A stretch of 64,000 nt of DNA from Ruegeria sp. PrR005 (GTDB lineage Bacteria; Pseudomonadota; Alphaproteobacteria; Rhodobacterales; Rhodobacteraceae). Made by a program: the position numbers and the translations under genes. Below, one piece after another: positions 50,725 through 55,866 of the stretch (its first letter is position 1; each line of letters begins with the position of its first letter). A model generated the notes under the pieces. The model did not search any database, had not been told where the DNA came from, and saw only the letters and a program-made list of their open reading frames with translations. The DNA lies in assembly GCF_010500245.1 (NCBI RefSeq), contig NZ_JAAGOX010000054.1, positions 124,001 through 188,000 of the forward strand, given 5' to 3'.

Positions 50725-52671
50725 ATGGCCCAGATCTCTCTCACCTTTCCCGATGGCAATGCACGATCCTATGACGCAGGTGTCACGCCCGCGCAGGTCG
50801 CCGCCGACATCTCCACCTCGCTGGCGAAAAAGGCCATCTCGGCCACTGTCGACGGCAAGCATTGGGACCTGCAATGGCCGATCGCGGGTGACGCGCAGAT
50901 TGCCATTCACACCATGGCCGACGAGGCGCAGGCCAACGAGCTGGTCCGCCACGATCTGGCCCATATCATGGCCCGCGCTGTGCAGGAGATCTGGCCCGCC
51001 ACCAAGGTCACCATCGGCCCCGTCATCGAGAACGGCTGGTATTACGACTTCGACCGCGCCGAACCCTTCACCCCCGAAGATCTCGGCCTGATCGAGAAAA
51101 AGATGAAGGAAATCATCAACAAGCGCGAGCCCGTGACCACCGAGGTCTGGGAACGCACGCGTGCGATCGAATTCTACAAGGCTAATAACGAACCCTACAA
51201 GGTCGAGCTGATCGAGGCCATTCCCGGCACCGAGCCGATCCGTATGTACTGGCACGGCCACTGGCAGGACCTCTGCCGTGGCCCGCACCTGCAACACACC
51301 GGCCAGGTCCCCGGCGACGCGTTCAAGCTGATGTCCATCGCGGGCGCCTATTGGCGCGGCGACAGCAATCGCCCGATGCTGCAACGCATCTACGGCGTGG
51401 CCTTTACCGGCAAGGAAAAGCTGAAAGCCCACCTGCACATGCTGGAAGAGGCCGCCAAGCGCGACCACCGCAAGCTGGGCCGCGAGATGGACCTGTTCCA
51501 CATGCAGGAAGAGGCCCCAGGCCAGGTGTTCTGGCACCCCAACGGCTGGACGATCTATACCGAGTTGCAGGACTATATGCGTCGCCAGCAGCGCAAGGGC
51601 GGCTATGTCGAGGTGAACACGCCCCAGGTCGTCGACCGCAAGCTGTGGGAGCGCTCGGGCCATTGGGAAAAATACCAGGAGAACATGTTCATCGTCGAAG
51701 TGGACGAGGAACACGCCCGCGAAAAGGCGGTCAATGCGCTCAAGCCGATGAACTGCCCCTGCCACGTGGAAATCTTCAAGGTCGGGCTGAAATCCTATCG
51801 CGACCTGCCACTCCGGATGGCCGAGTTCGGCTCGTGCAACCGCTACGAGCCCTCGGGCGCGCTGCATGGCATCATGCGGGTGCGCGGGTTTACCCAGGAT
51901 GATGCGCATATCTTCTCGACCGAAGAGCAGATCGAGGCCGAAACAGCGGAATTCATCCGTTTCCTCAGCGCGATCTACAAGGACCTCGGTTTCGAAAGCT
52001 TCAAGGTCAAGTTCTCGGACCGGCCCGACACCCGCGCCGGGTCCGACGCGGTCTGGGACAAGGCCGAAAGCGCCCTCTTGTCTGCCACCCGCGCCGCCGG
52101 GATCGAACCCGAACTCAATCCGGGCGAAGGCGCCTTCTATGGGCCGAAACTGGAATTTGTGCTGACGGACGCCATCGGGCGCGACTGGCAATGCGGCACC
52201 TTCCAGGTCGATTTCGTGCTGCCCGAGCGGCTGGACGCCACCTATATCGGCGCCGACGGGGCCAAGCATCGCCCGGTCATGCTGCACCGCGCGACGCTGG
52301 GCTCGTTCGAGCGGTTCATCGGCATCCTGATCGAGGAACACGCGGGCAAGCTGCCCTTCTGGCTGGCCCCGCGCCAGGTGGTGGTCGCCTCGATCACCTC
52401 GGAGGCGGATGACTATGTGAATCAGGTGGTGGCCGAACTGCGCGCCGCAGGCGTCCGGGCCGAGGCCGACACCCGCAACGAAAAGATCAACTACAAGGTT
52501 CGCGAACATTCGGTGGGCAAGGTGCCGGTGATCCTTGCCGTCGGTCAGCGCGAAGTCGAGGAACGCACCGTCAGCGTCCGTCGCCTGGGCGAAAAGGAAA
52601 CCCGCGTGCAGCCGCTCGCGGATGTTACAAAAGAGCTGGCGCGCGCCGCGACACCGCCCGACCTGCTGTAA
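50725..52671 (+). CDS. thrS: Threonine--tRNA ligase
   Basis: 648 residues. An N-terminal TGS domain ([28 protein letters not shown]), an editing domain ([28 protein letters not shown], zinc-like HxxxH...), the class II core with [11 protein letters not shown] (zinc Cys) and [34 protein letters not shown], and an anticodon-binding domain at the end. Standard length. It is followed by a terminator. Confidence 0.97.
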
Positions 52672-52691
52672 CAATTCTCACAAAAGACGTG

Positions 52692-52730
52692 CAGGCCAGC
52701 CTCCTCACCGGGGGCTGGCCTGTAACATTT
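52692..52730 (+). terminator. Terminator of thrS
   Basis: CAGGCCAGCC/GGCTGGCCTG around an 11-base loop (52692-52722), followed by TAACATTT. A weak T-run, so termination may be partial. Confidence 0.65.
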
Positions 52731-52892
52731 CGGGGGGTTGTCAAAAGAATCCCTTTGTTTACGGCGTGACTTGCCCAAGAATTCTGACAGGAATGTGAGA
52801 CACGGGGTCGTGAATTCAAACACGCATCCACCCACACTACCTTTGACTTGTCCAAGACGAAAACATCACACGATCATGAAGGGATGAACGAG

Positions 52893-53198
52893 ATGTCGAA
52901 CACCACGAAGACCCTGGCCATCGCGGGCGCCGTAGCTGCCGCGCTTTCCGCAGCCACTGTCACCACTGCCAGCGCCCAGGCCAAGGAAAAGTGCTATGGC
53001 GTATCGCTGGCCGGCAAGAACGACTGCGCCGCAGGCCCCGGCACCACCTGCGCCGGCACTTCGACCGTGGATTACCAGGGCAACGCCTGGACACTGGTTG
53101 ACGCTGGCACCTGTGCTACCATCGAACTGCCCGCACAGGCCGATGGCTCGGCACGCAAGGGCTCGCTCGAAGCGCTGACCCGCGACCTGCCCGCATAA
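52893..53198 (+). CDS. bufA1: BufA1-family bufferin precursor (DUF2282)
   Basis: 101 residues. A signal peptide ([25 protein letters not shown]) is followed by a core with four cysteines at 34, 45, 53 and 74: [26 protein letters not shown], then [15 protein letters not shown]. This is the bufferin-1 pattern. By family, MNIO enzymes convert Cys residues to thiooxazoles and the exported product binds copper. The ATG at 52893 is used; an ATG three codons upstream is possible. It is followed by a terminator-like hairpin and bufB, bufC, doxX. Confidence 0.93.
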
Positions 53199-53214
53199 GA
53201 CCCAACACCTTCAG

Positions 53215-53247
53215 GGGGCGGGCCGCCCACCGGCCCGCCCCTTTTCC
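53215..53247 (+). terminator. Attenuator-like hairpin between bufA1 and bufB
   Basis: GGGGCGGGCC/GGCCCGCCCC around seven bases (53215-53241), followed by TTTTCC. It would let the precursor peptide be made in greater amount than the modification enzymes behind it. Confidence 0.75.
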
Positions 53248-53279
53248 TACCCCGCCGGGATTGCCGAAAGGACGATGTC

Positions 53280-54137
53280 ATGCTGGATGCTTCTCGCGCC
53301 CCGAACGGCCTGCCGTCCGTACCCGGCGTCGGCTACAAGCCACAGCATTTCGCCGAGATCCTCGATGCGCCCGGTCCGGTCGGCTGGCTGGAAATCCATG
53401 CCGAGAACTACATGGGCGACGGCGGCCGCCCGCTGGCGCAGCTGCGCCATCTGTCCGAGCGGTTCCCGATCTCGGTGCATGGCGTCGGCCTGTCCATCGG
53501 TGGCGCGGGTCCGCTCGACCCTGATCACCTGGCCCGGCTGAAACACCTCGTAAGCTGGCTGAACCCGGCCAGTTTCTCGGAACATCTGGCCTGGTCCACC
53601 CATGACAGCCATTTTCTCAATGACTTGCTGCCGCTGCCCTATACCGATGCCACCCTGATCCGCCTCTGCGATCACATCGACCAGGTGCAGGACGTGGTTG
53701 GCCGCCGGATGCTGCTGGAAAACCCCTCCTCCTACCTCGCCTTTGCCGAAAGCACCTGGTCCGAGCCCGATTTCCTGCGCGAAATCTCCCGGCGCACCGG
53801 CTGCGGATTGCTCCTCGACGTCAACAACGTCTTTGTCTCGGCCACCAATCTCGATTTCTCGCCACAGGGCTATATCGACGCCTATCCGCTGGAACACGTG
53901 GGCGAAATTCACCTGGGCGGCCATGACGAGGATCATGACGACCACGGTCGCCCGCTCTTGATCGACAGCCACGGGCGCGAGGTGGTGGACCCGGTCTGGT
54001 CCCTGCTCGATTTCGTGCTCGACCGATCAGGCCCGAAACCGATCCTGATCGAGTGGGACACCGACGTGCCCGACTGGCCCGTTCTGCGGGCCGAGGCCGC
54101 GCGCGCCCAAACCGCGCTGGAGCGCTTACCGGCATGA
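53280..54137 (+). CDS. bufB: MNIO-family bufferin maturase (DUF692)
   Basis: 285 residues with a TIM-barrel metal-binding pattern: [22 protein letters not shown] (H67), SEHLAW (E101/H102), LLENPSSYL (E147), [12 protein letters not shown] (D180), [15 protein letters not shown] and LIEWDTD. MNIOs use a multinuclear iron centre to modify Cys of RiPP precursors. Its stop overlaps the bufC start by four bases. Start at 53280. Confidence 0.93.
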
Positions 54138-54916
54138 CCGTGACACAGGATGATTTCCATGCCGCTCTGCTCGATCCGGGCCGAGCGATCCCGGAGGGTC
54201 TGTGCGACGCCGACGCGCATCCGGCAGGCCGCCGGTTCAACGTCTACCGCAACAATGTCGCTGTGTCGCTGACCGAGGCGATGCACCAGGCCTTTCCGGT
54301 CATCGCCAAGCTGCTGGGCGCGCAGAACATGGACGGGCTCGCGGGACTCTTCCTTCGGCGCCATCCGCCGTCGACGCCGCTGATGATGTTCTACGGCGAG
54401 GCGTTTCCCGACTTCCTCGCCGGGATGGAACAGCTGTCGCACCTGGGTTACCTGCCCGATGTGGCGCGGCTCGAACTGGCGATACGCCAGTCCTACCATG
54501 CCGCCGACAGCACCCCGCTCGACCCAAAGGCGCTGTCCATCGACCCCGAGGCGCTGATGTCCGCGCGGCTGGACTTCGCCCCGGCCATGCGGCTGATCCG
54601 GTCGCCCTGGCCGATTCATGCGATCTGGCGGTTCAATACCGAGGACGGCGCGCCGAAGCCGCAACCGGGCGGTCAGGATGTGTTGATCACCCGGCCCGAA
54701 TACGACCCGATCCCACAGCCGCTGCCCCCCGGCGGCGGCGACTGGATCGAAGCCCTGCAAGCCGGTGCGACCATCGGCGCGGCCTATGAAGCCGCCGCCG
54801 AAACGACACCCGATTTCGACCTGGGCGCCACATTGGCCCTGCTCCTCCAGGGGGGCGCCCTCACCTCACTCACAGAGGAAGGACAAGAGCATGAACCCAC
54901 TCGTCTCGATCCATGA
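54134..54916 (+). CDS. bufC: BufC, partner of the bufferin maturase (DUF2063)
   Basis: 260 residues. The N-terminal half is the DUF2063 region: [69 protein letters not shown]. The C-terminal half is a beta-rich region with [24 protein letters not shown]. It delivers the precursor to BufB by family. Coupled to bufB by ATGA; it overlaps doxX by 26 bases. Confidence 0.9.
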
Positions 54917-55457
54917 CAAGGTCTTTGGCCTTGTCGAAACCGCCGGAACCTGGCTCTTGCCGCTGCTGGCCCGGTTCACCTTTGCCGCCGTGCTGCTGAT
55001 CTATTACTGGAACTCGGGCCTGACCAAGCTCGGCGATGGCATCCTTGGCCTGTTTAGCCCCTCGATCGGCGCCTACAGCCAGATCTTTCCCAAACAGCTG
55101 GAGGCGGTCGGCTATGACGTTTCGCAACTGGGCCTGTACCACTGGGCCGTGGTCATGGCGGGTACCTATGCCGAGTTCATCCTGCCGCCGCTGATCGTGA
55201 TCGGCCTGTTCACCCGGCTGGCCGCCCTCGGCATGATCGGCTTTGTGGTGGTGCAGTCGCTGACCGATGTCTACGGCCATGGCGCCACCGATCTGGCCAC
55301 GCTGGGCGCCTGGTTCGACAACCAGTCCGGCAGCGTGATCATGGACCAGCGCCTGTTCTGGGTTTTCACCCTTGGTATCCTGGTGATCCGGGGCGCGGGC
55401 GCCCTGTCGGTCGACGCGCTGCTGCGCAACCGCGCCCAAAGCACCGCCATGGCCTGA
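54891..55457 (+). CDS. DoxX-family membrane protein of the bufferin operon
   Basis: 188 residues with four helices: WLLPLLARFTFAAVLLIYYWNSGLTKLG, YHWAVVMAGTYAEFILPPLIVIGLFTRLAALGMIGFVVVQ, FWVFTLGILVIRGAGALSVD. The DoxX motif YWNSGLTKLGDG is present. DoxX genes regularly close bufferin operons. GAAGGACAAGAG precedes the ATG, which lies inside bufC. Confidence 0.88.
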   Translation: MNPLVSIHDKVFGLVETAGTWLLPLLARFTFAAVLLIYYWNSGLTKLGDGILGLFSPSIGAYSQIFPKQLEAVGYDVSQLGLYHWAVVMAGTYAEFILPPLIVIGLFTRLAALGMIGFVVVQSLTDVYGHGATDLATLGAWFDNQSGSVIMDQRLFWVFTLGILVIRGAGALSVDALLRNRAQSTAMA

Positions 55458-55469
55458 CCCGCAAGGATC

Positions 55470-55491
55470 GGCCCGCGCATTGCGGGCCCTT
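55470..55491. terminator. Hairpin between doxX and the convergent membrane-protein gene
   Basis: GGCCCGC/GCGGGCC with loop GCATT (55470-55488), followed by CTTCC. It lies between two convergent stop codons (55457 and 55498). Confidence 0.6.
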
Positions 55492-55497
55492 CCCTGC

Positions 55498-55866
55498 TCA
55501 GAAATGCGCCTTTTCCTCGTCCGGCTTGCCGGCTGCCACCGCCAGAACACCGGCCACCCCGGCAAAGGCGATGGGGAACATCGTGAACACGTTGAAGCCA
55601 AAGGCATGGTACATGCCCGCCGCCGAGATCAGCAGCAGCACACCGCCCCACAGCGCCCGCGCCCGCGCCATCGCCCCGCCCGCAATCGCCAGCATCGGCG
55701 CGATGACCGAAGTCATCTGCACCAGATCGGTATTGGCCACCTGTTCGGCCACGCCCTCGATCTCGCCGAAATACTCCACCGCCTCGACATAGCCAAAGCT
55801 GACAAAGCCGACGAGCATACCGATCAAACCGGCAATGATACCAAGGACAAGCGCCGCATTGCGCAT
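55498..55866 (-). CDS. Small membrane protein of unknown function
   Basis: 122 residues, three to four helices: AALVLGIIAGLIGMLVGFVSFGY, MTSVIAPMLAIAGGAMARA, LWGGVLLLISAAGMYHAFGF and FPIAFAGVAGVLAVAAG. A short acidic stretch (EAVEYFGEIEGVAEQVANTD) sits between helices 1 and 2. No family is assigned. It follows the ArsC-like gene on the minus strand by 44 bases, perhaps in one transcript. Confidence 0.75.
   Translation of the reverse strand: MRNAALVLGIIAGLIGMLVGFVSFGYVEAVEYFGEIEGVAEQVANTDLVQMTSVIAPMLAIAGGAMARARALWGGVLLLISAAGMYHAFGFNVFTMFPIAFAGVAGVLAVAAGKPDEEKAHF

Follow-up and report, generated by a model that had tools for sequence, protein, structure and literature searches.

The bufferins, copper-binding peptides that were described recently, form a large family, and in the accessible parts of the literature the regulators found for them are sigma factors. 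An operon of this family was recognised in the initial annotation at 52,893–55,457 of a 64,000-nucleotide stretch of Ruegeria sp. PrR005 DNA (the window), and it raises the question of which regulator switches such an operon on in this organism, and together with which other functions. The operon itself is a plain member of the Buf1 kind, with its genes as first read, and is in that respect ordinary. The new finding is the promoter element in front of it, which was missed in the initial annotation. It suggests that the operon and the repair of methionine sulfoxide in the periplasm have an envelope-stress regulator in common, and does not point to a dedicated metal sensor.

The operon and its conservation

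The profile searches that had been proposed for DUF2282, MNIO and DUF2063 all returned matches, and the four gene calls are borne out by the family models (Table 1). The precursor has four cysteines and matched the DUF2282 model with an E value of 1.7e-24 and 85.9 bits (cut-off 22.4); read by eye, its N-terminus shows a hydrophobic stretch up to TASA-QA, a putative Sec signal. The MNIO-type enzyme reached 344 bits with the Pfam model and 372.6 bits with the NCBIfam equivalog (NF050167; cut-off 310), and is the one MNIO match in the whole genome. The DUF2063 partner (E 1.3e-24, 86.7 bits against 27.2) and the DoxX protein closing the operon (E 1.4e-6, 29.3 bits against 23.6) passed their Pfam models, while scoring under the cut-offs of the NCBIfam equivalogs HvfC (46.9 against 142) and HvfX (24.5 against 80), respectively. 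Among solved chains, bufC had no match at E values up to 1, and bufA1 had two alone, both unconvincing (0.72 and 0.85). The coordinates also confirm a single strand and the coupled arrangement behind the precursor: bufC starts inside the MNIO stop and doxX inside the end of bufC, and translation may therefore be coupled.

Table 1. Genes and predicted elements of the bufferin locus, with positions in the window
Feature	Position	Strand	Basis
Dyad A, TGAC-N6-GTGA, CenR-type site (predicted)	52785..52798	+	conserved core in the alignment of 78 upstream regions
Dyad B, ACAC-N6-GTGA, immediately ahead of the -35-like box	52800..52813	+	78-region alignment
Promoter-like pair: -35-like TTCAAA (52815-52820), 17 nt, -10-like TACCTT (52838-52843)	52815..52843	+	alignment columns T, T, A and TAnnTT, conserved in part
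bufA1, DUF2282 bufferin precursor, 101 aa, four Cys	52893..53198	+	PF10048
Intergenic hairpin bufA1–bufB, perhaps a partial terminator or attenuator	53213..53243	+	fold, stem conservation
bufB, MNIO enzyme, 285 aa	53280..54137	+	PF05114, NCBIfam MNIO_BufB equivalog; nearest solved chain 3bww
bufC, DUF2063 partner protein, 260 aa	54134..54916	+	PF09836
doxX, DoxX-family membrane protein, 188 aa	54891..55457	+	PF07681
Hairpin after doxX, probable operon end	55470..55488	+	fold z -3.97

Related loci were compared as the best 80 of a longer list, mostly from Ruegeria and other Rhodobacteraceae. A DUF2282-type frame, found by pattern, precedes the MNIO gene in 78 of the 80, which together with the family models upholds the naming as a Buf1 bufferin operon. 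In 79 loci the operon is preceded, on its own strand, by a match to the C-terminus of thrS, the remaining one (L049) being too short to show it, and bufB, bufC and doxX clusters were present in all 56 loci that were clustered; the gene order thrS, bufABC, doxX is thus an old one that the group has kept. In the clusters printed for these 56 of the 80 loci, inspection by eye revealed no gene for a regulator next to the operon. Convergent with doxX, at 55,498–55,866 on the minus strand of the window, lies the gene of a small, probably membrane-bound protein with no Pfam match, whose relatives stand behind the operon in 42 of the 56 loci.

A hairpin behind the precursor gene

The stretch following bufA1 folds into a hairpin of 13 pairs (−32.4 kcal/mol for the folded stretch, z −2.55), described in the initial annotation as terminator-like. 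The stem part of that description is well supported: 73 of 79 loci have, in the interval from bufA to bufB, a stem with 10 pairs or more in an unbroken row, as compared with 62 of 395 Markov-resampled controls, and the printed hairpins differ in sequence while the stem stays, which supports a function in RNA. However, its terminator character is uneven. A T-rich tail of at least four T was seen in 44 of the 79 loci, the fold energy fell below z −2 in just 19, and the terminator scan did not list the hairpin of the window. A partial terminator is likely at some loci, with protection of the bufA1 RNA possible at others. Since the hairpin is conserved as a stem, an attenuator that would set the precursor above the enzymes is a reasonable reading. 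Another, very stable hairpin (z −6.76) occupies 52,690–52,725 of the window, behind thrS and just upstream of the bufferin promoter, and is perhaps the thrS terminator.

A double dyad upstream of bufA1

Alignment of 78 upstream regions, i.e. the window and 77 related loci, revealed one conserved block, reading TnAC, N6, TnAC, N6, GTGA, NN, CAC, N6, GTGA and followed by -35-like and -10-like boxes about 17 bases apart. All 78 regions carried 13–17 of the 17 fixed bases, 49 of them the full 17. In the controls, three of 390 Markov-resampled regions reached 13, and the reversed pattern scored at most 12 on the real regions. The sigma-70 scan did not list the promoter-like pair of the window, so the pair appears weak on its own. 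Within this genome, bufA1 is the one place that has the exact double element, and copies with two mismatches number five, which is the control level. A CTTG-yC-CAAG repeat upstream of bufA1 was also considered as an operator and rejected as chance, its ten-base form recurring, beyond the two copies of the window, just in L004 among the 78 regions.

The exact form TnAC-N6-GTGA-NN-CAC-N6-GTGA was then located in 72 of 295 Rhodobacteraceae genomes, the reversed control giving none; the 73 rows obtained correspond to 72 distinct places, one of which is palindromic, and as the compared regions come from related bacteria, these counts are not independent events. Sixty-seven of the 72 places precede bufA or bufB (39 by position, one read on the opposite strand and 27 after fetching of the region). 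Read frame by frame, the other five comprised four places before an MsrA with a signal-like N-terminus and one before an L,D-transpeptidase. Of the four msrA loci found by this pattern, two (L118 and L124) have the exact match on the strand that does not carry the gene; the element itself is almost a palindrome. MNIO genes were present in 210 of the 295 genomes and the exact pattern was missing from 223, so the exact form covers a minority, the others having weaker forms or none.

Individual loci add some detail. The L,D-transpeptidase is a YkuD-domain protein preceded by the double element at 1845–1817 of L122, on the minus strand; an L,D-transpeptidase is among the CenR targets of R. sphaeroides. 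The genome of L120 (G236) has two MNIO matches, and its bufferin locus on a second contig also has the promoter element. A sequence profile of the bufA operator was also run on 149 genomes: among 20 fetched regions, hand-chosen mainly away from listed MNIO genes, seven belonged to bufferin operons, one to msrA and 12 to neither. Eight were read frame by frame, and several of these matches fell inside frames, so weak profile matches were not used.

The dyad recurs before msrA

Relatives of the MsrA of this genome, which has a signal-like N-terminus, were found in 99 of 149 genomes at 100 places. Ninety of these were examined, none of them among the four loci found by the pattern. The full two-dyad matrix fitted few msrA promoters, with five of 94 regions scoring at least 5 bits, four of these five already found by the pattern (controls 1/282 and 0/140), and a single-dyad test with gap controls took its place. 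The exact TCAC-N6-GTGA was present upstream of 60 of the 90 msrA genes, compared with 0–1 of 90 at each of the gaps 2–5 and 7–12 and a Markov mean of 0.5; within one mismatch the figure rose to 84 of 90, against 7–29 at other gaps. The exact sites start 163–232 bases before the end of the extracted region, which places them very roughly 60–130 bases before the gene. Before the msrA of this genome the dyad reads TCAA-N6-GTGA, with one mismatch. Most msrA promoters have one clear dyad and not the full double element.

A 16-bp tandem-dyad search that was blind to genes led to the same gene: it returned places in 16 of 295 genomes (control 0), 15 of the 16 standing in front of msrA and the remaining one in front of an aminotransferase-like gene, of a kind adjoining msrA in 27 of 46 loci. 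Outside the family, the tandem dyad was found at four places in 380 genomes of the class, with one hit in the control. Two of the four precede an msrB–msrA pair, and the other two appear to lie inside reading frames without msr genes. At the two former places (L279 and L280, around position 1500), which belong to another family of the class, the tandem dyad is followed by msrB (SelR domain) and then msrA, both with signal-like N-termini, and this suggests the same control beyond the Rhodobacteraceae. Some msrA promoters carry several tandem 15-bp GTGA-type units, as if sites had multiplied (L121 at 1696–1750, L160 at about 1648). Among the clusters printed, no regulator gene was recognised by eye around the 46 msrA loci or beside the msrB–msrA pair outside the family.

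These results bear on the simplest account of the upstream conservation, namely that it is a core-promoter feature of an ordinary bufferin operon under constitutive control or control of the sigF–NrsF type. Caulobacter bufferin operons are reported to be sigF-dependent (PMC3511200), and bufferin clusters can carry sigma and NrsF genes, according to a further report (PMC12452194). However, an NrsF search of this genome gave no match at E ≤ 0.001 while the Caulobacter control was detected. Likewise, the sigF consensus GTAACC-N16-CGAA was not found within two mismatches at 52,623–52,892, between thrS and bufA1, and its matches over the window as a whole were near chance (44 against a mean of 34). 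Caulobacter-type sigF–NrsF control is thus unlikely, and a core promoter would not explain a dyad that recurs before msrA at one fixed gap. Taken as a whole, we regard this account as very improbable.

A CenR-like response regulator

A motif of the same form has been described for the OmpR-type regulator CenR of R. sphaeroides, for which the site TGA-N8-TGA was reported, with 28 of 31 sites just upstream of a -35 box (PMC9275681). TnAC-N6-GTGA is TnA-N8-TGA with the inner C and G fixed, and at bufA1 a TGA-N8-TGA-type site was likewise found just upstream of the predicted -35 box. The targets described include cenR, msrA and an L,D-transpeptidase, all three shared with the loci found here, and msrA sites were reported in four further alphaproteobacteria; the published table names no bufferin gene (PMC9275681). 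In the present case, the element before bufA1 is double. The R. sphaeroides msrA is marked in that table as lacking a signal peptide. In the accessible text of two CenKR papers, copper appears as grid material alone, and CenR is reported to be essential in R. sphaeroides.

For the 31 published CenR sites the average score was 2.81 under the dyad-A matrix and −1.54 under the dyad-B one, compared with −27.6 and −27.3 for letter permutations, a control that shows a common motif form and not which protein binds, as another OmpR-type protein could share the site. Five of the 31 have exact TnAC/nCAC-N6-GTGA. The genome of strain PrR005 gave 13 hits to the OmpR-type DNA-binding domain, 12 of them above the cut-off, and a dyad match was present at three of the loci. 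That of L293 falls within the coding frame, and in L296, a sub-cut-off hit seemingly without a receiver domain, it lies about 90–130 nt before the gene on the other strand. L290 is the one locus with the match in promoter position and orientation. Its promoter site is identical to the R. sphaeroides cenR site at 14 of 15 positions, and the protein has an Asp at position 56, the number given for the CenR phospho-acceptor in the source. Relatives of L290 were present in 94 of 100 genomes, and in all 30 loci fetched for examination but one the gene was preceded by CAC-N6-GTGA (29/30; other gaps 0–3/30). No NCBIfam equivalog reached its cut-off for L290 among the 25 of 99 families listed, and an Asp five residues before the phospho-acceptor, tried as a mark of CenR, did not single CenR out among the 7 of 13 regulators parsed. 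L290 is a CenR-like regulator and the candidate CenR of this genome.

The dyads could be bound by a different regulator with a CenR-like site, OmpR-type or other, for instance one that senses copper or oxidants; bufferin and msrA would still form one small regulon. The double element gives this some substance, being in its full form almost confined to bufferin and msrA promoters and so narrower than the 31 published CenR units, as does the number of OmpR-type domains in the genome. However, the published CenR sites match the same matrices, msrA, the L,D-transpeptidase and cenR are targets in common, and among the 13 loci L290 alone has its match where a promoter site would be expected. We consider a regulator other than CenR rather unlikely.

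Proposed mechanism and comparison with known systems

From the genes, the element, its distribution and its match to the published CenR sites, we infer the course of events from binding and activation through the inducing signal to chemistry and physiology as follows. CenR, as part of the CenKR envelope system, most likely activates the bufA1 promoter by binding the two dyads upstream of the -35 box. Through the hairpin behind bufA1, the precursor mRNA may come to exceed that of the enzymes. By analogy with characterised bufferins, BufB and BufC probably convert the two inner cysteines of BufA1 to thiooxazoles, and the peptide would be exported by Sec and bind copper in the periplasm. As this dyad is also found in front of the apparently secreted MsrA and of cenR itself, damage to the envelope would lead to joint production of bufferin and MsrA. 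Their work would be divided, the bufferin withholding the copper that drives oxidation and MsrA repairing oxidised methionines. We consider this joint reading, a Buf1 operon for a copper-binding peptide that is activated by CenR together with MsrA under envelope damage, to be probable.

YedY proteins are the methionine-sulfoxide reductase MsrP. The Buf1 operons of the Caulobacter gig/sigF type, for which the class name captophorins has been proposed, have the same order of four-cysteine DUF2282 precursor, MNIO, DUF2063 and DoxX genes; they differ from the present system, where NrsF had no match in the genome and the promoter element is another, CenR-like one. Caulobacter sigF is reported to control two bufferin operons together with the YedY-type gene CC2748, the latter just partly sigF-dependent, and msrA homologues were unchanged in the sigF mutant (PMC3511200). 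In Haemophilus, an operon for a periplasmic protein, UPF0276, DUF2063 and DoxX is described as co-controlled with msrAB by RpoE2, and for SigE of Neisseria control over a similar set is reported (PMC7907618). There, in contrast to the response regulator proposed here, the regulator is an ECF sigma factor, and the precursor is of another type. In E. coli, copper induces MsrPQ via CusSR (PMC9302797), which ties a copper response to periplasmic methionine-sulfoxide repair as proposed here; reductase and regulator differ, and the abstract of that report does not name a bufferin. In combination, these cases show a coupling of copper with oxidised methionine that is not confined to one bacterium. 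No link of a bufferin to CenR or to a methionine-sulfoxide reductase was found in titles and abstract openings of open-licence PMC articles, among the matches listed.

That the product of this operon protects against copper, as the initial annotation had supposed with another metal as the alternative, is inferred by carrying over copper protection as reported for characterised bufferins (PMC12452194, PMC13097082). The operon might instead serve mainly gold, zinc or chromium, or answer an oxidant such as hypochlorite directly. The Legionella GIG operon is reported to respond to gold as well as copper (PMC5413113), dichromate induction was reported in Caulobacter (PMC3511200), and hypochlorite induces the related DoxX/UPF0276/DUF2063 operon of Haemophilus, with msrAB, via RpoE2 (PMC7907618). 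Conversely, copper binding is described for several bufferins (PMC12452194, PMC13097082); the present data separate no metals. We assign a low probability to a main role for another metal or a direct answer to an oxidant.

If the probable reading of copper-binding peptide and MsrA under CenR is extended to the family, the bufferin operon of the Rhodobacteraceae would be a direct, perhaps the strongest, target of CenKR, and would constitute one copper-and-methionine envelope defence with the periplasmic MsrA. Regulators unrelated to one another would then have come to control this pairing: in Caulobacter sigF, where the partner is the YedY-type CC2748; in Neisseria and Haemophilus SigE/RpoE2, where it is msrAB; and in the present case CenR. 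We see this wider proposal as evenly poised between right and wrong. A shared, highly specific element ties the bufferins of one bacterial family to the repair of oxidised periplasmic methionines; it names a likely and testable regulator, and gives a clue to the signal of CenKR. Should the wider proposal be true, the protection of periplasmic methionines would be a shared purpose of bufferin-type peptides.
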